From Geothrix sp. (lineage in GTDB: Bacteria > Acidobacteriota > Holophagae > Holophagales > Holophagaceae), in assembly GCF_020622065.1 (NCBI RefSeq), contig NZ_JAHRYQ010000002.1, forward strand, positions 617,905-681,904: a DNA stretch of 64,000 nt, read 5' to 3'. The position numbers and the translations under genes are program-made. This document shows positions 2,653 to 37,355 of this stretch, piece after piece. Every line of letters starts with the position of its first letter. The stretch's first letter is position 1. A model generated the notes under the pieces. It worked only from the letters and a program-made list of their open reading frames with translations. It did no database searches and was not told where the DNA came from.

Positions 2653-2875
2653 GACCCCGCTCCGATCGTCCCAGGCCGCCTATTGCGCTAACCTGACCCC
2701 CGATTCCCGACTTCAACTTGCTGGACTGCGCCCAATTTATCGCCTTTTTTTCGCCCGTCAAGTCCACCCGTCAGTACGCCCATTCCCCCAAGCACGGCTT
2801 CCCCCCACCCCCAGGTTTCCGGCCCGAAGCGTACTCACCCACCCCCCAACCCCACCGTCCAATTCAAAGTTAGGC
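2653..2875 (+). other. attI region: primary integration site of the integron
   Basis: Non-coding interval between the intI start and the first cassette. It ends in AAAGTTAGGC (2866-2875), the same ten bases that end the class 1 attI site, and GTTAGGC at 2869-2875 matches the R' core where cleavage is expected after the G. No attC-like left arm precedes it, which distinguishes attI from attC. A weak TTCAAC-17 bp-ATTTAT pair (2712-2740) could be the cassette promoter, but it matches consensus poorly. The outer limits of attI are not visible. Confidence 0.85.
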
Positions 2876-3501: not shown

Positions 3502-3531
3502 ATTTTTATATATTTGTGACATAAACACCCA

Positions 3532-3655
3532 GCCTAACCCTTAGCTCAACTCGGACCCCGCCTGCATTGCCTTTCGCTCTCTCTCAACTTCTCGCTACCT
3601 CGGCTTCGTTCGGCGCCTCGGTGCAGGCGTGGCCGGTTAGTTCCATTCGTTAGGC
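3532..3655 (+). repeat. attC 1 (intact, 124 bp)
   Basis: Starts with R'' GCCTAAC (3532-3538) and ends with R' GTTAGGC (3649-3655). Inner arms CTCAACTCGGACCCCGCC and GGCGTGGCCGGTTAG can pair imperfectly, as needed for the folded bottom-strand substrate. Central TGCA/TGCA boxes flank a TC-rich variable loop. This is the reference form for the array. Confidence 0.95.
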
Positions 3656-3661
3656 CGCACC

Positions 3662-4048
3662 ATGATCGCTCTCGAAATACTCGGAACCTTGGCTTACCTC
3701 GCGTGGGGGTTGTTCACCTTCTACACCGCCTTTCAAATCTTCAAACTCTGCTGGCCAGTTCTCAAAAATGATTGGTTTTGGTTTGCGACTAAATCCGCTT
3801 ACTACAAAGGAATGTTTCTCGGCCTTGGTAGTTTCTTCCTTGTCATGCTCCCCGTTGCTTGGCTTGGGCAGGTGGGCATATTGATTCCAATGGTCGTACA
3901 GGCCATCATCGCCCTGAAGCAAACGCACAACAAATCAATGCCGTCGCTAGATAGGGCCGTTTGGTACGGTATGCCCTTCTTCATGCTTCCACTTTGGCTC
4001 ACGGTCCGTCAGGGGCAGAAACTTGGCGAGATCCCACGCGCGGCCTAA
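3662..4048 (+). CDS. Cassette 2: hypothetical membrane protein, 128 aa
   Basis: Encodes a small inner-membrane protein with about four hydrophobic segments (near residues 5-30, 47-66, 70-86 and 100-115). No recognised domain. ATG at 3662 lies 12 bp after the recombination point and has no clear Shine-Dalgarno sequence, which is common in cassettes. The TAA stop (4046-4048) is formed by the R'' core of the next attC, so coding region and recombination site overlap by six bases. Confidence 0.7.
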   Translation: MIALEILGTLAYLAWGLFTFYTAFQIFKLCWPVLKNDWFWFATKSAYYKGMFLGLGSFFLVMLPVAWLGQVGILIPMVVQAIIALKQTHNKSMPSLDRAVWYGMPFFMLPLWLTVRQGQKLGEIPRAA

Positions 4049-4166
4049 CCCTCCGCTCAACTCGGACCCCGCCCGCATTGCCTTCCGTTCTCTCTCATCT
4101 TCTCGCTTCCTCGGCTCCGCTCAGCGCCTCGGTGCAGGCGGGGCCGGTTAGCTTCATTCGTTAGGC
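4043..4166 (+). repeat. attC 2 (intact, 124 bp)
   Basis: R'' GCCTAAC 4043-4049 and R' GTTAGGC 4160-4166 with the array's standard core. It overlaps the stop codon of the preceding ORF. Confidence 0.95.
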
Positions 4167-4167
4167 C

Positions 4168-4381
4168 GCCCAACCAGCGGAGTACGCTCTAAATTTTAGG
4201 CCTGCATCGAATCGTTAGGCCTCAGTTCTTCCAAAACCCGCTCCATCCGCGTTTTTTTGGTCTGCCCATTCAAATTGCCTCGTTCAATAGCTCCGCGGTA
4301 AAATCAGCAATTACATCCATCTCAAACCGGATTAGGCGGATTACGAACATCTTCGTCCTCGCCGTCCAAGTTTAGTTAGGC
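4168..4381 (+). other. Two decayed, ORF-less mini-cassettes
   Basis: After attC 2 there are two more R'-type boxes, GTTAGGC at 4214-4220 and 4375-4381, without a full attC in front of either. GCCCAAC at 4168-4174 could be an R'' partner of the first, which would give a 53-bp degenerate site. The sequence between them has no ATG-started ORF on the plus strand. I read this as remnants of two cassettes whose attC arms have decayed. Confidence 0.55.
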
Positions 4382-4514
4382 CTCGAAGAGCCACACTTCA
4401 CATCGCTTCAGGCACTTCACATTTCCCACTTGTCTCGCAATTCTTTTGTTCCTTCAATCGTCTGCTCGGTTTCCTGGTCGTCTCGGTCCATGCCGCGGCA
4501 AACCTGGCGTCTCG
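4376..4514 (+). other. ORF-less cassette, copy A of a duplicated cassette
   Basis: The cassette body between the R' at 4375 and attC 3 is about 140 bp and has no credible ORF. It is roughly 92 percent identical to 5812-5951. Differences fall at all codon positions and one is an indel, which argues against a protein product. It may carry a promoter or a small RNA, or be a passenger. The shared 3' part contains CATGCCGCGGCAAACCTGGC in this copy. Confidence 0.75.
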
Positions 4515-4638
4515 GCCTAACCCTCCGCTCAAGTCGGACCCCGCCTGCATTGCCTTCCGCTCTCTCTCAGCATCTCGCTATCTCGGCTCCGCTCGTCGCC
4601 TCGGTGCAGGCGTGGCCGCTTAGCTTCATTCGTTAGGG
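4515..4638 (+). repeat. attC 3 (intact, 124 bp)
   Basis: R'' GCCTAAC 4515-4521; R' is GTTAGGG (4632-4638), one base away from the majority form. Confidence 0.94.
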
Positions 4639-4673
4639 CTCATCCCCAATTTCATTCCAACACGGTGTCATTC

Positions 4674-5129
4674 ATGTTCATTCCCATTTTCGCTTTGCTC
4701 GTGCTGAACCAGAGTCAACAATCATTAGTAAATCCTGAAATGCGGGATTCAGCCATCCGACTGGAAGCCAAAATTTCTTCGACCGGTGGGGCTGGGGCTG
4801 TCCTTCTCATCTCAAGGCCTGACAGGACGCATCTTTCTTATGCCTTCTTACCCCGGGGCAATTGGCCCGTTACCCTCTTCGGTGAAACGCAGCCCTTTGC
4901 GCCGGCCTCACAGCCTAAAATCAAATTCATTAAACCAAGGCCATCAAAATCAGATCCTGTATCACCCATCGTATTCACAGAAGTCATTCCAGAAGAAACC
5001 ACCGGCATTAAGTTGAAGTTCGATCCAAAGGATTTGAATTCTGAATCTAGAGAGGTGGTTGTCCCTCCTGTTGGCCAATCAAGTGTAATTATCGAATTTT
5101 ATTCACCCGCCAAACTTTTTGCGAGATAA
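4674..5129 (+). CDS. Cassette: hypothetical exported protein
   Basis: Starts with a hydrophobic stretch (MFIPIFALLVLNQ) that could be an uncleaved anchor or weak signal peptide, followed by a polar, proline-rich domain of about 135 residues. No family recognised. ATG at 4674 is chosen over GTG at 4665 because it gives a normal signal-like start; no clear ribosome site is visible. The stop lies six bases before attC 4, leaving essentially no spacer. Confidence 0.65.
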   Translation: MFIPIFALLVLNQSQQSLVNPEMRDSAIRLEAKISSTGGAGAVLLISRPDRTHLSYAFLPRGNWPVTLFGETQPFAPASQPKIKFIKPRPSKSDPVSPIVFTEVIPEETTGIKLKFDPKDLNSESREVVVPPVGQSSVIIEFYSPAKLFAR

Positions 5130-5135
5130 CCTTCG

Positions 5136-5259
5136 CCCTAACCCTTAGCTCAACTCGGACCCCGCCTGCATTGCCTTCCGCTCTCTCTCAGCTTCTCGCT
5201 TCCTCGGCTCCGCTCAGCGCTTCGGTGCAGGCGGGTCCGGTTAGCTCCATTCGTTAGGC
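5136..5259 (+). repeat. attC 4 (intact, 124 bp)
   Basis: R'' CCCTAAC 5136-5142 (C instead of G at the first position), R' GTTAGGC 5253-5259, standard core. Confidence 0.93.
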
Positions 5260-5278
5260 GTGCATCATAGGAATCAAA

Positions 5279-5683
5279 ATGAACAATAGGATTCGAACCA
5301 TGTTCCTTCTCGCGACTTTCTGTACGCTTCTTTTCGCAATGAACTGCCAACAGCCTTCATCTGAACGCACCTCTGCCTATAGAGGGCAGCAAATTACCGA
5401 ATTTAATGAATCGGTCGCTAATTCCCTCCCCGTTATCCAAGATGAATCGGCGCTCAATGGGCGCAGGTACTCAGTGATCCAAGATCTTGAAAATGTTTGG
5501 CCAAAGAGAACCGGCGAAACCTTAGAGAAGGCCAGTGCTGTAGCTGGTCTTCGGTACCAGGCATGGAAACTAAAGGCCGATGCTCTAATATTTATTGGTA
5601 TCTCCACCAAATCCACGACTCCGGATAAGAATGGTTACATTGAATTCATCGCACGAGGGAAGGCTATAAAATTTCTAAAGTAA
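5279..5683 (+). CDS. Cassette: hypothetical secreted or lipoprotein, 134 aa
   Basis: N-terminus MNNRIRTMFLLATFCTLLFA is a good signal sequence and a Cys follows at residue 23 (AMNCQQ), a weak lipobox because Asn precedes the Cys. The mature part has a short hydrophobic strand (ALIFIGIS) but no recognised domain. AGGAATCAAA precedes the ATG. Likely periplasmic or membrane-anchored; function unknown. Confidence 0.7.
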   Translation: MNNRIRTMFLLATFCTLLFAMNCQQPSSERTSAYRGQQITEFNESVANSLPVIQDESALNGRRYSVIQDLENVWPKRTGETLEKASAVAGLRYQAWKLKADALIFIGISTKSTTPDKNGYIEFIARGKAIKFLK

Positions 5684-5692
5684 TCCGTGCAT

Positions 5693-5817
5693 GCCTAACC
5701 CTTCGCTCAAGTCGGACCCAACCTGCACGGCCTGCTTTCCTCTCTCTTCATTCGTCCTTCTCAACTTCGTTCAGCTTTTCGGCTGCAGGTCGGGCCGCTT
5801 AGCTTTATTCGTTAGGC
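5693..5817 (+). repeat. attC 5 (125 bp, variant core)
   Basis: R'' GCCTAAC 5693-5699 and R' GTTAGGC 5811-5817. The arms read CAAGTCGGACCCAACC and GGTCGGGCCGCTTAG, compensated changes relative to the majority sites. The central loop is also different. Confidence 0.92.
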
Positions 5818-5951
5818 CTCGAAAAGCCACACCTCACATCGCTTTAAGGCACTTCGCATTTCCCACTCGTCTCGCAATTCTTTCGTTCTTTCAATCGTCC
5901 GCTCGGTTTCCTCGTCGTCTCGGTCCATGCCTCGGCAAACCTGGCGTCTCG
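5812..5951 (+). other. ORF-less cassette, copy B of a duplicated cassette
   Basis: Second copy of the 4376-4514 body, with about a dozen differences in 140 bp including one inserted base. It is bounded by different attC sites (5 and 6), so it moved or was duplicated as a cassette and not by simple tandem slippage of the whole region. No credible ORF. Confidence 0.75.
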
Positions 5952-6075
5952 GCCTAACCTTCAGCTCAACTCGGACCCCGCCTGCATTGCCTTCCGCTCT
6001 CTCTCAGCTTCTCGCTTCCTCGGCTCCGCTCAGCGCCTCGGTGCAGGCGGGTCCGGTTAGCTCCATTCGTTAGGC
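5952..6075 (+). repeat. attC 6 (intact, 124 bp)
   Basis: R'' GCCTAAC 5952-5958, R' GTTAGGC 6069-6075, standard core. Confidence 0.95.
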
Positions 6076-6084
6076 GTCGCATCG

Positions 6085-6522
6085 ATGGCCTCTGATTACC
6101 AGCAGAACATCCAAACTAGCCAATTCCTCGAACTGGCCGAAACGAAATTCGCCGGTGAAAGCAAGGTCTCACTCTATGTTCAGGGATGGGAAGACGGCGA
6201 CCACTACCTTGAACTATGTAATGAAAATGGTGGTGTCGTCCCTTCAAGACACGAGTTGTTCAAAACCTTGCCATTCCACTACTCCGGCCCCAATTGGTCC
6301 GAAACCCTATGCCGGTTGAACCAATTTCTTTCCCACCCGCATCTCGGAACTGAATCCGGGGCTTACAAGTTCCCCTACGACATTTTCCTTTCAACTCCAG
6401 GAATGGCTATTGTCTACAACCCATTGCTCCTTGCTCTTCGTCAATACAAGCCCACCATCCACGAGCGCCTCTTCGGGCTGGCTTTACCCGCCTGGCAGAA
6501 TGAAAGCCAACCATCCTTTTGA
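6085..6522 (+). CDS. Cassette: hypothetical cytoplasmic protein, 145 aa
   Basis: A soluble protein without signal or membrane segments. It contains many aromatic residues (VQGWEDGDHYLELCNENGG near 33-51) and an ending without recognisable motif. No family recognised. The ATG at 6085 lies nine bases after R', with no visible Shine-Dalgarno, so translation may depend on the upstream transcript. ORF length fills the cassette almost completely, as expected for a cassette gene. Confidence 0.65.
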   Translation: MASDYQQNIQTSQFLELAETKFAGESKVSLYVQGWEDGDHYLELCNENGGVVPSRHELFKTLPFHYSGPNWSETLCRLNQFLSHPHLGTESGAYKFPYDIFLSTPGMAIVYNPLLLALRQYKPTIHERLFGLALPAWQNESQPSF

Positions 6523-6532
6523 ATGGCGAACC

Positions 6533-6656
6533 GCCTAACCCTCCGCTCAAGTCGGACCCCGCCTGCATTGCCTTCCGTTCTCTCTCAGCATTTCGCTATC
6601 CCGGCTCCGCTCATCGCTTCGGTGCAGGCGTGGCCGCTTAGCTTCATTCGTTAGGA
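6533..6656 (+). repeat. attC 7 (intact, 124 bp)
   Basis: R'' GCCTAAC 6533-6539; R' GTTAGGA 6650-6656 (last base changed). Inner arm CGTGGCCGCTTAG, as in attC 3 and attC 8. Confidence 0.93.
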
Positions 6657-6667
6657 GCTTTCGCCTC

Positions 6668-7546
6668 ATGGCATCAGCTGGGAACGACCGATTTTTATTG
6701 ATGTTCACTCCAGAGCAATGGACGCCCCTAGAACAATTCATCCGATTCATGGGCCCACCATTCCCTGTCAACAGACCTCTATCACATTCGGTTCGCTCAT
6801 GTGATAGCCACATTAGGAAATTCAAAATATTGGCAAATCTAGCAAATCGTCTATACCCAGGCATCGACGAGGATCTGGCCGAATTGAAGGAGAATGGGTA
6901 CACAAGCAACGCCCGGAGCAACGAGTACTCAGCTGTAGTCGAAACTCTTGCATGCGAGCTATATGCCGCTTTAGATTGCCTAAGAACAACTCTTTATCAC
7001 ATATACAGAAATGTACAAGGAATACAAAACAGCTCTACCAAAAAATTGTTCGATAAGGCCATCTCTTCCTCCTATGGAGTCGGATTTCCGGAAACAATCA
7101 GACTCCTCCTATCTCAGGCTGCGGACGATTGGTTCCCAAAGCTCCGTAAATTAAGAACTGAGCTCACACATGGCGGTACTGGTTCGTGCCACAAAGACAA
7201 AGTAAGCACTCAAATCAGGTATATTCACGAGGGCCTCGGAGACGGCTATAGAGCATACATAATTGACAATATTCATTCTGAAATCAATGCTTTCGCATCA
7301 GGAACTCTAAATCTGATTTATTCCATTTTTCAGCAACTGTACAACCAGCTAGACCCATCTGATACCACTCAATTCTGTGGAATTTATAAGGGTAGAGTAT
7401 ATTCTAGGACGGCTATCCCAGAACAACCACCGACTCAATCAATGGGCACTTGCACCGCTTATTCATGGTTCAACAATGAACCCGATTTAGCTTGTCCGCT
7501 TCGTGAAGAGTGTGGTGCATACAAACGGGCCCACGCACGCTCCTAA
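6668..7546 (+). CDS. Cassette: hypothetical protein with an RX4H (HEPN-like) motif
   Basis: A 292-residue mostly helical protein. Residues 155-170 read WFPKLRKLRTELTHGG, with R163 and H168 spaced as in the RX4-6H active site of HEPN ribonuclease domains and with the usual helix context. The C-terminal 50 residues are Cys-rich (Cys near 261, 275 and 281). No signal peptide. If HEPN, it may be an RNase toxin, a defence effector, or a non-catalytic HEPN; no antitoxin-like partner is encoded in the same cassette. Assignment rests on one motif, so it is tentative. TAA is provided by the R'' of attC 8. Confidence 0.65.
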   Translation: MASAGNDRFLLMFTPEQWTPLEQFIRFMGPPFPVNRPLSHSVRSCDSHIRKFKILANLANRLYPGIDEDLAELKENGYTSNARSNEYSAVVETLACELYAALDCLRTTLYHIYRNVQGIQNSSTKKLFDKAISSSYGVGFPETIRLLLSQAADDWFPKLRKLRTELTHGGTGSCHKDKVSTQIRYIHEGLGDGYRAYIIDNIHSEINAFASGTLNLIYSIFQQLYNQLDPSDTTQFCGIYKGRVYSRTAIPEQPPTQSMGTCTAYSWFNNEPDLACPLREECGAYKRAHARS

Positions 7547-7664
7547 CCTTTCGCTCAAGTCGGACCCCGCCTGCACGGCCTCCCGCTCTCTCTCAACACT
7601 TCGCTATCTCGGCTCCGCTCATCGTCTCGGTGCAGGCGCGGCCGCTTAGCTTCATTCGTTAGGC
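7541..7664 (+). repeat. attC 8 (intact, 124 bp)
   Basis: R'' TCCTAAC 7541-7547 (first base changed), R' GTTAGGC 7658-7664. The stop of the preceding ORF is inside R''. Confidence 0.93.
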
Positions 7665-7672
7665 AGGCTTCG

Positions 7673-8164
7673 ATGATTCTCCGAACTTCGATGGCAGCCA
7701 TTCTCATCGCGGCCCCAGTTTCACTGAGGTCGCAAGCACCACCTGTTAAATACGATGAGCATTCTCCGATCAACAAGTTCATCCCATTCGGAAGAGACTT
7801 TTTCAAAAGCCATCGGGGATCTGTCCTTCGTCATTGGATGGAGAAATACCACAACTCGAATTCAGAGCTTGATGGTGAATGGCACACGGAACTACATCGC
7901 GGCTTCCGATTCGAATTCATTCGAGGCGATCGCTACACCAAAGATGAACTGGGTAGCGTCGTCATTACAGATCCAACGATTCCGCTCCCACTTGGATTGG
8001 CGCTCGGTGACAGCAAGGAGAAGGTTCTGAAAATCCTGGGACCAGCTGCAATCACCAAAGAAGATTCATTCGAGTACGAACTCAGTTTTGAAATGTGTTT
8101 CCTCACCATGCGGTTCACTCGGGGGCGCCTAATCGAAATCGAGATCTCGTATGATCACGAGTAA
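7673..8164 (+). CDS. Cassette: hypothetical secreted protein, 163 aa
   Basis: Begins MILRTSMAAILIAAPVSLRSQAPP, a probable cleavable signal peptide ending near SQA. The mature domain has a Gly/Leu-rich centre (LPLGLALGDSKEKVLKILGP) that resembles small periplasmic domains in which a residue threshold is computed from neighbours, but I cannot name a family. Ends 32 bp before attC 9. Confidence 0.65.
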   Translation: MILRTSMAAILIAAPVSLRSQAPPVKYDEHSPINKFIPFGRDFFKSHRGSVLRHWMEKYHNSNSELDGEWHTELHRGFRFEFIRGDRYTKDELGSVVITDPTIPLPLGLALGDSKEKVLKILGPAAITKEDSFEYELSFEMCFLTMRFTRGRLIEIEISYDHE

Positions 8165-8196
8165 GAATAACGCACACCATTACTGTATTCAGGCCT

Positions 8197-8321
8197 GCCT
8201 AACCCTCCGCTCAACTCGGACCCCGCCTGCATTGCCTTCCGCTCTTTCTCTTCATTCCTCTTCCTCGGCTTCGTTCGTCGCCTCGGTGCAGGCGGGGCCC
8301 GGTTAGCTTCATTCGTTAGGC
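8197..8321 (+). repeat. attC 9 (intact, 125 bp)
   Basis: R'' GCCTAAC 8197-8203, R' GTTAGGC 8315-8321. Extra C in the GGGGCCCGGTTAG arm and a different central loop. Confidence 0.93.
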
Positions 8322-8340
8322 GGCTCTTCTAGAGGTCCCT

Positions 8341-9177
8341 ATGAGTTCTCCCCTCGCACTTCTATGGCTAGAGTTATGTATAGGCACAAATTCCATCGGG
8401 TTTCTTTACTCACAGCCTTCGGGGTTGATGGAAACGCCAGTAGTTATTGAAGGCAAGTCAACCCTCATCCATGTTCAGAACCCAAGGCCAGGAGAGAAGA
8501 ACGAGTACTTTGACCTCGCGGATTCTACCGAGTGGTTTCGACCAGTCCAGATGTGCAAGGCTAGATTGGAATACCAGGCCTCCCTGGCAAAGCGTCTAGG
8601 TGAAGGTGGGCTCCTTCAACGAGGTCTACTGGAACGGCAGTACGCTTTGTACGCTGCCCAAGTGGGAAAACCTTCAAGGCGGGAATCCGAAAATGGCCGC
8701 CTCGTGCTCGATGGGCAGATTGGAAAGCAAAGGCCTGTCAACGCTTTGGAATGGTTGCTATTCCAACACCAGGCGAACCGATATCCCATGATTGAGCACC
8801 CAACCGAATTCTCTGCATACATCCTCAGAGGAAACGGCCGAATCCATGTCTACATGTCCGGTGGCGATACCATCGGTACAAAGCTAAGGCATGAGGTCAC
8901 AGAAAGGGTCGCCCTTGACGTAAAGGCGGGTATGGACCTCATCACTCACTTGCACAATCATCCTTTCATGTTCGACCGCCAACCAGGAGATCGCCTCTAT
9001 ACCACTGAGGATTCACGAACCGATGTAGGTGGTGCACTCGCACCAAGCCTTACCGACGTGCAGGCTCTTCGACGCATGCACAATGACTTCGGATTGATAG
9101 GGGCCACAATCACAAACGGCCTGGACACATATGAGTTCAAAGCCGCTGAATTCGATCGTTTATCGGCCTGGGACTGA
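8341..9177 (+). CDS. Cassette: protein with a JAB/MPN-like metalloprotease motif
   Basis: A 278-residue soluble protein. H203-L-H205 (THLHNHPF) and S236-L-T-D239 (APSLTD) reproduce the HxH...SxxD zinc signature of JAMM/JAB domains, and E156 could be the upstream catalytic acid. The gap between HxH and SxxD is about 30 residues, longer than in RadC (H171/H173 and D184 of the radC gene at 36332), so it would need an insertion loop. The first 140 residues match nothing I know. Possible role: removal of a ubiquitin-like or other C-terminal tag, or an atypical RadC-like domain. ATG at 8341 has GAGG eight bases upstream. Confidence 0.65.
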   Translation: MSSPLALLWLELCIGTNSIGFLYSQPSGLMETPVVIEGKSTLIHVQNPRPGEKNEYFDLADSTEWFRPVQMCKARLEYQASLAKRLGEGGLLQRGLLERQYALYAAQVGKPSRRESENGRLVLDGQIGKQRPVNALEWLLFQHQANRYPMIEHPTEFSAYILRGNGRIHVYMSGGDTIGTKLRHEVTERVALDVKAGMDLITHLHNHPFMFDRQPGDRLYTTEDSRTDVGGALAPSLTDVQALRRMHNDFGLIGATITNGLDTYEFKAAEFDRLSAWD

Positions 9178-9216
9178 ACTTGTATTGTGGTAATAGGATG
9201 TTTGTTATCCACAGCC

Positions 9217-9340
9217 GCCTAACCCTCGGCTCAACTCGGACCCCGCCTGTCTTGCCTTCCGCTCTCTCTCAGCATTTCGCTATCCCGGCTCCGCTCAGCG
9301 CCTCGGTGCAGGCGGGTCCGGTTAGCCTCATCCGTTAGGG
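9217..9340 (+). repeat. attC 10 (intact, 124 bp)
   Basis: R'' GCCTAAC 9217-9223, R' GTTAGGG 9334-9340, with TCC for TTC in the R' spacer. Confidence 0.93.
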
Positions 9341-9363
9341 CTCCTTTCAACGGAGAATTCAAC

Positions 9364-9771
9364 ATGACCAGTTGGCGCATCACACCAATCCTTTTAGGCC
9401 TTCTCTCTCTTTGTGCTTGCACAGGGCCAGTCGTGGTTCGCTCACATGTTTCCGGGGGCTATGTTCGTGCTCAGGGCTACAGCCGAGAGGAAAACTCGCG
9501 GGTCTTGGCCGAACTTCGAATTTTCGGGTCCGTCGATGCAGATTCCGTCCAATTCCAGGAAGAGACCCCACAAGGTCTGAATATTGAATACCAACCAGAC
9601 CAAGTCACTGTCAGATGGGTGGTAGCCGAGGGGCGGATTGGTAAATGGAACAAGGCGCCTTACTTCGTGCTTGGCCGAAGTAAGGATCGTCCATTCAAGG
9701 TACGGATAGACTGCCAAACCAAGTCTTCAGTTCTAGTCGAGGCTTTTAGTGTCCCACCCGTTCGCCCCTAG
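9364..9771 (+). CDS. Cassette: hypothetical lipoprotein, 135 aa
   Basis: Signal peptide ILLGLLSLCACTG gives a lipobox-like LCAC, so the mature protein is probably lipid-anchored at Cys19. The rest is a short beta-rich domain without a recognised family. GGAGA lies eight bases upstream of the ATG at 9364, one of the clearer ribosome sites in the array. Confidence 0.7.
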   Translation: MTSWRITPILLGLLSLCACTGPVVVRSHVSGGYVRAQGYSREENSRVLAELRIFGSVDADSVQFQEETPQGLNIEYQPDQVTVRWVVAEGRIGKWNKAPYFVLGRSKDRPFKVRIDCQTKSSVLVEAFSVPPVRP

Positions 9772-9804
9772 AAATTCCTTCTTCACTTGCAATCGCCCTG
9801 GTCG

Positions 9805-9928
9805 CCCTAACCCTGCGCTCAACTCGGACCCCGCCTGCATTGCCTTCCGTTCTCTCTCAGTTTCACGCTTCCTCGGCTCCGCTCAGCGCCTCGGTGCAGG
9901 CGGGTCCGGTTAGCTTCATTCGTTAGGC
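9805..9928 (+). repeat. attC 11 (intact, 124 bp)
   Basis: R'' CCCTAAC 9805-9811, R' GTTAGGC 9922-9928, standard core. Confidence 0.94.
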
Positions 9929-9949
9929 CTCACATTTAGGAGAGAAGCC

Positions 9950-10654
9950 ATGCCGTTTGACTTGGCGTCCTTACTTTCAGCTGGTGGTGGAGGCGCAGCC
10001 GTTGCATTCGGATTCTATAAATTCTTCGGTACAAAATGGCTCGAGTCGAAATTCCAAGCCTCAATCGAAAAGCTCCGTCATCAGCAACGTCAGGAACTTG
10101 AAACATTTAAGATTTCTACAAATTCTTCTCTCGATCGGCTCAACAAATTGAACCAAAGGGAATATGAAGTTTTACCGAAAGCCTGGGAGTTATTAGTCCT
10201 TCTCCAACTTCATGTATCAAGATTTGTAGCTTCCTATAAAGAATCACCGGATCTGAAGAGTATGTCAGATCCCCAATTTGAAGAATTTGTAACCCAAAGT
10301 GATATGGCAGATTTTCAGAAAACCGAGCTGAGAATTGCACCTGATAGAAATAAATATCACCAAGAAATCACCTTTTGGCGCGAGTACAACTCAGCTCGTA
10401 ATGCGTACAGCGACTATGCGAAATTTATAATGTTCAATTCCATCTTTTTCTCTCCCTCATTGAAAGATCTATTCAAAAAGGCCGATGAAGAATGTTGGGC
10501 GGCAATGTCTAGTCGAAAAATAGCAAAAGAGGCTGGCTCCTTCCCAGGACAGTACATGCAATTCTATGAACAGTGGGTAAAGGCGATGGAATCGTTGAAA
10601 AATTTAATGAATCAAATCGAAACTCTCGTCCAAGAACGTCTCAATCGAATCTGA
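9950..10654 (+). CDS. Cassette: membrane-anchored coiled-coil protein, 234 aa
   Basis: N-terminal glycine-rich hydrophobic segment (about 8-26, LLSAGGGGAAVAFGFYKFFG), then a charged coiled-coil stretch (about 32-70) and a helical domain. This architecture, a short membrane anchor followed by a Gln/Lys-rich helix, recurs in many uncharacterised bacterial proteins. GGAGAG precedes the ATG. Function unknown. Confidence 0.7.
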   Translation: MPFDLASLLSAGGGGAAVAFGFYKFFGTKWLESKFQASIEKLRHQQRQELETFKISTNSSLDRLNKLNQREYEVLPKAWELLVLLQLHVSRFVASYKESPDLKSMSDPQFEEFVTQSDMADFQKTELRIAPDRNKYHQEITFWREYNSARNAYSDYAKFIMFNSIFFSPSLKDLFKKADEECWAAMSSRKIAKEAGSFPGQYMQFYEQWVKAMESLKNLMNQIETLVQERLNRI

Positions 10655-10668
10655 TCTTTGGTTCTTCG

Positions 10669-10792
10669 GCCTAACCCTCCGCTCAACTCGGACCCCGCCT
10701 GCAATGTCTTCCGCTCTCTCTCAACTTCTCGCTTCCTCGGCTTCGTTCATCGCCTCGGTGCAGGCGGGGCCGGTTAGCTCCATTCGTTAGGC
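10669..10792 (+). repeat. attC 12 (intact, 124 bp)
   Basis: R'' GCCTAAC 10669-10675, R' GTTAGGC 10786-10792, standard core with AATGTC in place of CATTGCC. Confidence 0.94.
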
Positions 10793-10863
10793 CTCGAATA
10801 ACAGGCTCGTCAGAACTCCGTTCGGCTGGTCAATTCGCCTGTTCGGCCGTTCTGCTTGACCTG
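10787..10863 (+). other. Minimal ORF-less cassette body (77 bp)
   Basis: Only 77 bp separate the R' cleavage point of attC 12 from attC 13. No ORF is possible. It shares the opening TTAGGCCTCGAA with the duplicated ORF-less cassette but then differs, and contains short palindromic pieces (TCGGCTGG, TTCGGCCG). Confidence 0.75.
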
Positions 10864-10986
10864 GCCTAACCCTCCGCTCAACCCGAGTCCCGCCTGCATT
10901 GCCAGGCGCTCTCTTTCTTGCTCTGGCCATCTCGACTTCGCTCATTGCCTTGGCGCAGGCAGGCCCGGTTAGCTCACTCGTTAGGC
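10864..10986 (+). repeat. attC 13 (123 bp, somewhat divergent)
   Basis: R'' GCCTAAC 10864-10870, R' GTTAGGC 10980-10986. Core arms read CAACCCGAGTCCCGCC and GGCAGGCCCGGTTAG; the variable loop differs. Confidence 0.92.
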
Positions 10987-11014
10987 GTCGAACCCTCAAA
11001 GACCAAAGGTGTAA

Positions 11015-11524
11015 ATGAAAACCGCGCTACTCGTAGTTGACATGCAAATCAGCCTCATCGATGAGGGGCCGTGGAACTCCGAAGCCCTAATGAGCAAAGT
11101 AGAGAAACTGATTGAACTTGCCCGCCTGAATTCGGTTCTTGTTGTATTTGTGGTGGATCACCGCGTTGAACCCAATATGTCCCTGCACCCACGGATGCAA
11201 ACCATATCAGGTGACCTTCATATAACAAAACATTTCTGCGATTCTTTTCTCGATACTCCACTGGATGAAGAATTACAAATACGAGGCATCAAGCACCTGG
11301 TGATCGCAGGGTTACAAACTGATTACTGTATTGATACTACCTGCAGACGAGCTGCTTCACTTGGATACACCGTCCAACTCGCAAGTGATGCACACTCCAC
11401 CTTCCCGCACCATGATCTAAATGCGGAGCAAATCATCGCGCACCACAATTGGACCCTTCGGCATTTCTCGGCAGGGAAGGGCTCGGTTTCTGCTGTTAAA
11501 AGCGAGCACATCCATTTCGCCTAG
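11015..11524 (+). CDS. Cassette: isochorismatase-family cysteine hydrolase
   Basis: Cytoplasmic hydrolase of the isochorismatase/nicotinamidase superfamily, 169 aa. The catalytic triad is visible as D9 (VVDMQ), K72 (HITKH) and C105 (TDYCIDTTCRRA), with the cis-peptide region AGLQTD before the Cys. Length and motif order fit the small single-domain branch. Substrate is not predictable: these enzymes act on amides or enol ethers and some modify xenobiotics. The stop overlaps a non-standard attC (14). Confidence 0.9.
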   Translation: MKTALLVVDMQISLIDEGPWNSEALMSKVEKLIELARLNSVLVVFVVDHRVEPNMSLHPRMQTISGDLHITKHFCDSFLDTPLDEELQIRGIKHLVIAGLQTDYCIDTTCRRAASLGYTVQLASDAHSTFPHHDLNAEQIIAHHNWTLRHFSAGKGSVSAVKSEHIHFA

Positions 11525-34582: not shown

Positions 34583-34650
34583 GGGACCTCCACGAGGGGC
34601 GGGAACGACGGGCGGGGCAACCCACCTCATCGACCCCGGACGGGGTGAGG

Positions 34651-34732
34651 TGAGCGCCGTTCCAGAATCGGAAGCGTCCGAGCCTGAGATCCCTCGCCAT
34701 GCGGGCGGAGTCCTGCAGCGCTCCTCGGACTC
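34651..34732 (-). promoter_or_regulatory. SAH riboswitch upstream of ahcY
   Basis: On the minus strand the leader reads GTCCGAGGAGCGCTGCAG ... CAGGCTCGGAC ... AACGGCGCTCA. P1 is GTCCGAG (34724-34730) with CTCGGAC (34676-34682); the pseudoknot joins GAGCGC with GGCGCTC at 34652-34658. These are the signature elements of the SAH riboswitch class. It ends 68 nt before the ahcY ATG. Between them is a hairpin CCCCGTCCGGGG. Confidence 0.9.
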
Positions 34733-37089: not shown

Positions 37090-37182
<93 letters not shown>

Positions 37183-37265: not shown

Positions 37266-37355
37266 GGAGGGATGGCCGAGCGGTTTAAGGCAACGGTCTT
37301 GAAAACCGTCGTGGGTGTGAACTCACCGCGGGTTCGAATCCCGCTCCCTCCGCCA
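37266..37355 (+). tRNA. tRNA-Ser (UGA anticodon)
   Basis: 90 nt with encoded CCA. Acceptor GGAGGGA/TCCCTCC, anticodon stem ACGGT/ACCGT with loop CTTGAAA, long variable arm, TTCGAATCC. Reads TCA and related codons. Divergent from the other serine tRNA; 83 bp between the two 5' ends. Confidence 0.95.

Follow-up and report, generated by a model that had tools for sequence, protein, structure and literature searches.

Gene-less integron cassettes in a Geothrix array and their possible role as mobile leader or promoter elements

In the usual description of large cassette arrays, most cassettes past the first promoter are silent. In Vibrio superintegrons, gene-less promoter cassettes of 491–666 bp, described as AT-rich, have been bench-tested, and their promoters were not predictable in silico (Blanco et al. 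2024, PMC11014356). Cassettes without an open reading frame (ORF) but with regulatory activity are also described in oral Treponema (Tansirichaiya et al. 2019, PMC6557892), and the ORF-less Xanthomonas cassette sRNA-Xcc1 is thought to act as an RNA (PMC8876359). In class 1 and 2 integrons, cassettes ending in a truncated attI can be excised and inserted by IntI1, as Gonzales Machuca et al. (2026, PMC12901181) describe. Here we report on a gene-less cassette body, termed A, which occurs twice in the integron array of a 64,000-nucleotide stretch of Geothrix sp. DNA (assembly GCF_020622065.1, contig NZ_JAHRYQ010000002.1, positions 617,905 to 681,904; hereafter the window), and on its relatives, the gene-less families A′ and B, as well as a 214-bp unit with an attI-type site.

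Like the Vibrio promoter cassettes, these elements are gene-less, lie in a chromosomal array, have a normal attC and are proposed to act on neighbouring cassettes; unlike them, their bodies measure 138–245 nt and have ends in common, they form families that span several species, two of these families carrying a host-type double box, and they are known from sequence alone. The Treponema cassettes, likened here by description, are also ORF-less but carry sigma-70-like promoters, also in antisense, according to the summary in PMC8876359. Family A is non-coding like sRNA-Xcc1 but has no structural or covariation support. The 214-bp unit resembles the delta-attI-type cassettes in ending in an attI-type site instead of an attC; those cassettes, as described in PMC12901181, carry genes (mostly for resistance), whereas the unit is gene-less and has a promoter-like site, and its position is what points to movement. 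No report of these cassette families was found in the literature on integrons with Geothrix or, among the matches listed, Acidobacteria. We consider the finding a variant, not previously reported within that literature scope, of the known kind of ORF-less promoter cassette, the function of A itself being unproven.

Rather than being a gene, A may well be a control element that can move, although its two copies are without the clearest of the signals seen in its relatives. Our preferred reading, which we hold tentatively, as plausible though short of probable, is that A is a gene-less cassette within a set of related cassettes that would act in cis as mobile leader or promoter elements of arrays. 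A is read as a sister of such cassettes because it keeps the 3′ module and the ends that it shares with A′ (Table 1).

Comparison of the two bodies confirmed what an earlier note on this DNA had described, namely about 92% identity with substitutions and one indel: copies 1 and 2 are 92% identical over 138 aligned positions, and the match within the window's own genome has E = 4.6e-51, so that their likeness is beyond chance. The duplication is real but was understated, since a third copy (98%) lies on another contig of the same genome (G000:C1:1582354-1582491; G000 is the window's genome). A search of other genomes, which the note had proposed, located a fourth copy (88%) in the sister species G003 and two remote relatives in G003 and G030, giving four close copies in two genomes. 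The length is held at 139–140 nt across the four close copies; the bodies start on G^TTAGGC crossover points and end within one base of GCCTAAC boxes. Copy 2, the third copy and the G003 copy have a common start of their own attC, CCTAACCTTCAGCTC, and copy 1 has CCTAACCCTCCGCTC; it seems, then, that in copy 1 the body was joined to an attC other than that of the other close copies. That the bodies lie between different attC sites, also claimed earlier, is correct for copy 2 but not for copy 1. The left boundary of copy 1 (CGTCCAAGTTTAGTTAGGC) fails to fold like an attC (z = −0.55); it resembles the attI next to the integrase and has matches among attI/leader sequences, some of which adjoin integrase genes.

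The array contains a repeat of about 129 nt, the attC, with 12 occurrences within 3529–10989, and three attC bottom strands folded into the expected long hairpin (z = −1.95, −2.34 and −4.0). An array served by an integrase, a folding attC of its own on the 3′ side of each copy, and no conserved coding frame together place A among the gene-less integron cassettes. The family A profile showed a weak likeness to an ordinary attC at window positions 8185–8295 (E = 0.0089). The body with its attC had no match in plasmid and phage collections, nor had two exact patterns in viral contigs, and a mobile-element or phage origin of the body was rejected on these grounds. A 20-base body pattern had seven matches in genome contigs, all from unrelated groups, and these were set aside, as was the best of them (L020), whose E value of 2e-5 covers just 22 bases in a locus set picked for that very pattern.

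The absence of a conserved reading frame, another claim of the earlier note, was borne out. The indel shifts the stop-free frames of copies 1 and 2 relative to each other, and no family A frame has a synonymous share clearly above the neutral expectation; some are stop-free by chance in a short pyrimidine-rich body, one plus-strand frame being open in 6/6 aligned rows. For all six frames of A, A′ and ten B rows, the synonymous share was 0.13–0.35 against an expected 0.20–0.28; the highest values (0.33–0.35) came from the four close A copies, with 23–24 changed codons each, and were gone when all six rows were used. It is highly improbable that A encodes a short minus-strand peptide of 27–38 amino acids starting MDRDDEE or MNR. 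The ATG of this small ORF is kept in 6/6 A rows with the first 24 or more codons open, in part of A′ a related ORF is likewise open, and codon position 3 is slightly more variable in 9 of the 17 A′ rows, at a borderline p = 0.052 in a run that left out rows gapped in the ORF columns as well as loci L037, L039, L045, L046 and L049. With all A′ rows ungapped in these columns, however, p was 0.14, and in A it was 0.21 (six rows) or 0.44 (four rows). The end of the ORF differs among copies, A′ rows have frameshifts or early stops, and the synonymous changes in the candidate ORF (11/40 and 18/76 in A′, 13/57 and 2/12 in A) correspond to the neutral expectation of 0.19–0.23. Coding on either strand was thus rejected, the synonymous share being at the neutral level and the frames being shifted or ended differently among copies.

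A′ (187 nt) has its first ~12 nt and last ~70 nt in common with A. The comparison set comprised 77 genomes of the order, 47 of the genus and 30 others. BLAST with A′ gave matches in 10 of the 47 genus genomes (in G030 just the last 45 nt), and an A′ profile search gave nothing in the 30 others. In an alignment of 17 rows from 9/47 genomes (one row, L049, is truncated), the ends, two boxes 21 nt apart and a TCAT are nearly invariant, and the stretches between them vary. The boxes, CC(G/A)TTC(G/A)G and C(T/C)GTTC(G/A)G, are of the CCGTTCGG type, and parts of both, together with TCAT, form invariant columns. Allowing gamma-distributed rate variation among sites changed the log-likelihood from −1521.6 to −1490.8 (16/17 rows), which we take to mean constraint on parts of A′, or mosaicism. 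Family B has matches in 10/47 genomes, among them L005:12946-13190 and nine further ones in the window's genome; the two B bodies examined carry the boxes at a spacing of 22 (0/200 shuffles as good), and ten B rows gave no coding signal in any frame. In the C1 array of the window's genome, the cassette that comes first after the leader is a B body (L277). A further family, D, which is apparently gene-less, stands directly behind attI in L263 and L271.

A′ profile searches also found intergenic relatives on the chromosomes. The pattern CCGTTCRG-N13/14-CSGTTCGG has 62 matches, including at least two A′ copies, in 27/77 genomes, against 4 for the reversed control. We selected, on their boxes alone, 51 distinct sites that have no GTTAGGC-like site within 60 nt on their upstream side. 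The distance from the second box to a downstream TAnnnT is exactly 32 nt in 20 of them and 33 nt in 7, the other 108 of 110 offsets totalling 23; since the sites were picked on the boxes alone, the peak at 32–33 nt is not built in. The double boxes and the fixed offset suggest a promoter class with a −10 element at a set distance from an upstream double operator. Examples of this promoter-like class, with boxes 21–22 nt apart, are L152, L187, L202 and L204. A′ has the double box, with TTCAT in place of the usual −10 at that spacing, and part of the chromosomal loci likewise have TTCAT at the −10 offset. At 19 of 28 hand-picked sites, a same-strand ORF of at least 60 codons with a purine-rich stretch lies 40–215 nt downstream, by a loose rule applied without a control.

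The same boxes stand at the head of arrays. In five loci read by eye (L085, L093, L137, L139 and L147), the double box is followed by a leader of about 200 nt, this by an attI-like site, and then come a gene and an attC; array-head leaders of this length contain ATCAGCAGTTAC or a near form of it. In G001, G002, G003, G005 and G009 the single integrase match is on a contig other than that of the array, so that arrays with no integrase nearby begin with the double box as well. Separately, L207 (G000:C1) has, at about 1500–2700, small ORFs preceded by a double box, with TAGGGT 32 nt downstream of the box and an attC-like end before it. The array of G005 contains a similar double-box site (L211, G005:C2:362979). 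This is apparently a cassette with its own regulated promoter.

Because A′ has, besides a conserved TCAT, the double boxes seen at the promoter-like chromosomal sites and the array heads, it is probably a mobile promoter cassette. A host regulator would bind the double box and so switch on transcription, which would cross the 3′ module and the attC and continue into the cassettes downstream. A, which has the ends and the 3′ module without the double box, might, less firmly, be a leader, an unrecognised promoter or a mere relic.

Conservation within A is uneven. Between the window's genome and G003, the 3′ half has 1–4 differences in 68 positions and the 5′ half 15–20 in 68 (p = 0.0001–0.0005), in three comparisons that share one ancestry.

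Several observations weigh against the reading of A and its relatives as leader or promoter elements. The contrast between the halves is absent against the two remote (A2) copies (p = 0.39–1), so that it comes from one species comparison and could be caused by recombination. A simple scan found no sigma-70-like site in either A body. A has no double box either, its best score with the position weight matrix (PWM) being 1.4 or less against 23 in A′, a value that is partly circular, since a few A′ copies are among the sites from which the matrix was derived. At the −10 position A′ itself has TTCAT rather than TAnnnT, and TTCAT occurs at offset 33 in just 3/51 chromosomal sites, with further TTCAT sites, having degenerate boxes, outside these three. 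Because there are orthologues among the 51 sites, they cannot be counted as independent, and an array holds at least one of them. A home-made gene caller based on codon usage placed 29 downstream genes on the same strand and 35 on the other, giving no orientation signal; we distrust this caller, whose training set was 24 ORFs and which overlooks genes that the eye can find. Finally, the A′ copy at G000:C2:402010 (L208) has no site by the attC pattern within 16 kb, and array membership does not extend demonstrably to every copy.

The proposal of the earlier note that A may act as a promoter accordingly fared only in part: the sister families A′ and B carry an operator-like double box, which is indirect support, but A was not filed as a promoter cassette, since it has neither that box nor a sigma-70-like site. 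A poor PWM double box in the 3′ module of A was also considered, but 1, 4, 5, 7, 15 and 108 of 200 shuffles were as good in the six rows, and it was discarded as too weak.

A strong rival for A, possible although somewhat doubtful, is that it is baggage, whether neutral or selfish, and perhaps what is left of a longer cassette, shuffled by IntI thanks to a good attC. Movement of A needs just IntI and its attC. A does not have the boxes of its sisters, its copies differ by substitutions and an indel, and just 2 genomes have close copies, a third genome having one of the two remote relatives. Recent movement is suggested by the 98% copy on the other contig, and an A′ mini-cassette that is itself truncated persists too. 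On the other hand, the 3′ half of A has hardly changed between two species whereas its 5′ half has diverged, the four copies keep a length of 139–140 nt, and the rate variation of the related A′ fits constraint. The earlier argument that a gene-less cassette kept twice points to a function at the DNA or RNA level is partly supported: such a function is plausible for a non-coding body present in several arrays and two species with a 3′ half that is much more conserved in the one close comparison between species, but double retention by itself says little when cassettes are mobile, and the 98% copy suggests that movement was recent. The conserved half adjoins the attC of A, as it would if the body aided recombination, a further candidate of the earlier note, for example as an accessory site beside its attC; by eye, however, no comparable stretch precedes the attC in the neighbouring gene cassettes of the window, and we regard this explanation as very improbable.

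The earlier note had also named a small RNA as a candidate, and had proposed a check of covariation. That A is a small regulatory RNA, by analogy with sRNA-Xcc1, a precedent described in PMC8876359, appears distinctly unlikely to us. The ends of the body, GTTAGGCC and GGCCTAAC, pair in the predicted folds, though they are fixed by the recombination sites, and one A′ copy has a minus strand whose fold is somewhat better than those of its shuffled versions (z = −1.77; 6/200 as good). However, A (z = −1.06 and 0.03) and the A′ plus strand (z = −1.13) fold no better than shuffled sequences. Consensus folds gave unfavourable covariation terms, with changes on both sides in 1/37 pairs for A′ and a negligible 2/30 for A, and Rfam gave no match at the bodies, either in the window at the gathering threshold or in eight related loci at E values up to 5. 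Neither compensatory changes nor a known RNA family thus marks the bodies as a structured small RNA, and a structured RNA was set aside as being without support for A and with little for A′.

The left neighbour of copy 1 is the 214-bp attI/leader unit. BLAST with 156 bases of it (4225–4380) gave matches in 11/47 genomes, and in G001, G003 and G010 the matches lie within a few hundred bases of an integrase. The full unit, at 213–216 bp, is present in 11 copies in 7 genomes including the window's, of which 6 stand behind an attC, 4 behind an attI and 1 elsewhere. Its attI-type 3′ end and its occurrence behind attC or attI group it with the delta-attI-type cassettes. A promoter consensus scan of the window returned 8 sites against 7.8 in shuffles, and a single match is meaningless by itself; the weight of the promoter-like site within the unit comes instead from its retention in 9/11 unit copies, as TTGCCT, TTGCCC, TTGCGC or TCGCCC, an 18-nt spacer and TAAAAT or TAATAT. 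It is possible that the unit is a mobile attI-plus-promoter element, as judged by its positions. Copy 1, directly behind it, would be in the leader of any transcript started at this site.

Combining these elements, the genus may possess a kit of mobile array-control cassettes, consisting of A′, B and perhaps A, derived from the double-CCGTTCGG promoter class of the host, plus the 214-bp Pc-plus-attI unit. Shuffled by one integrase in trans, the kit would supply regulated promoters and insertion points to several arrays without an integrase, and would tie their expression to a chromosomal regulator. We consider this wider scheme rather unlikely as it stands.

The features of the window are collected in Table 1. 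Its integrase is the sole match at E ≤ 1e-60 in the window's genome, and at least one match is found in 30/47 genus genomes. The other cassette ORFs that were searched, two mostly overlapping sets of eight, had no family match above the curated cut-off. At the array end lies a hydrolase of the isochorismatase family (11015–11524, plus strand). Elsewhere in the window are an S-adenosylhomocysteine (SAH) riboswitch (34645–34732, minus strand; 49.1 bits, gathering threshold 37) and two divergent tRNA genes (37093–37182, minus strand, and 37266–37352, plus strand).

Table 1. Positions of integron features and gene-less cassettes in the window.
Feature	Position	Strand	Evidence
Integron integrase IntI, 336 aa	1642..2652	-	TIGR02249, 463 bits against a cut-off of 265; Phage_integrase and SAM-like domains
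Primary attI beside intI (CGTCCAATTCAAAGTTAGGC), crossover G at 2869	2856..2875	+	Core common to sister-genome leaders, several adjoining intI
attC of preceding gene cassette (3662-4048)	4044..4166	+	129-nt repeat family D1; attC pattern match
214-bp attI/leader unit, cassette-like, ending in attI-type site	4167..4380	+	BLAST; unit search; no attC fold at right end
Promoter-like TTGCCT-18-TAAAAT in the unit, pointing at copy 1	4275..4304	+	Consensus scan; conservation among unit copies
Gene-less cassette body A, copy 1	4376..4514	+	Alignment with copy 2 and relatives
attC of copy 1, start unlike the attC of the other three close copies	4515..4638	+	Repeat; fold; sequence comparison
attC left of copy 2, belonging to gene cassette 5279-5683	5693..5817	+	Repeat family D3; fold z -2.34
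Gene-less cassette body A, copy 2	5812..5951	+	Alignment with copy 1 and relatives
3′ module of copy 2, common to A′ (copy 1 equivalent ~4447-4514)	5883..5951	+	83% over 75 nt, into attC box
attC of copy 2	5952..6075	+	Repeat; fold z -4.0
Mini-cassette, truncated A′ (first 71 nt at 97%); double box kept, TTCAT box and 3′ module lost	10787..10863	+	BLAST; sequence comparison
Double box CCGTTCGG-N13-CTGTTCGG in mini-cassette	10818..10846	+	1 match against 0 in 100 shuffles; 0/200 shuffles as good (PWM)

The double-box cassette kit and the attI unit are a more interesting lead than the two A copies. These copies are of value in that the family includes members without the clearest signal, which helps to tell function from baggage. 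The double box, the fixed distance of 32–33 nt to a −10-like hexamer and the attI-bearing unit are sharp sequences for testing. If the reading of these families as mobile control elements is true, conserved gene-less cassettes with signals also present at chromosomal promoters and array heads would allow internal cassettes to be woken under host control, and this would explain why gene-less cassettes are kept.

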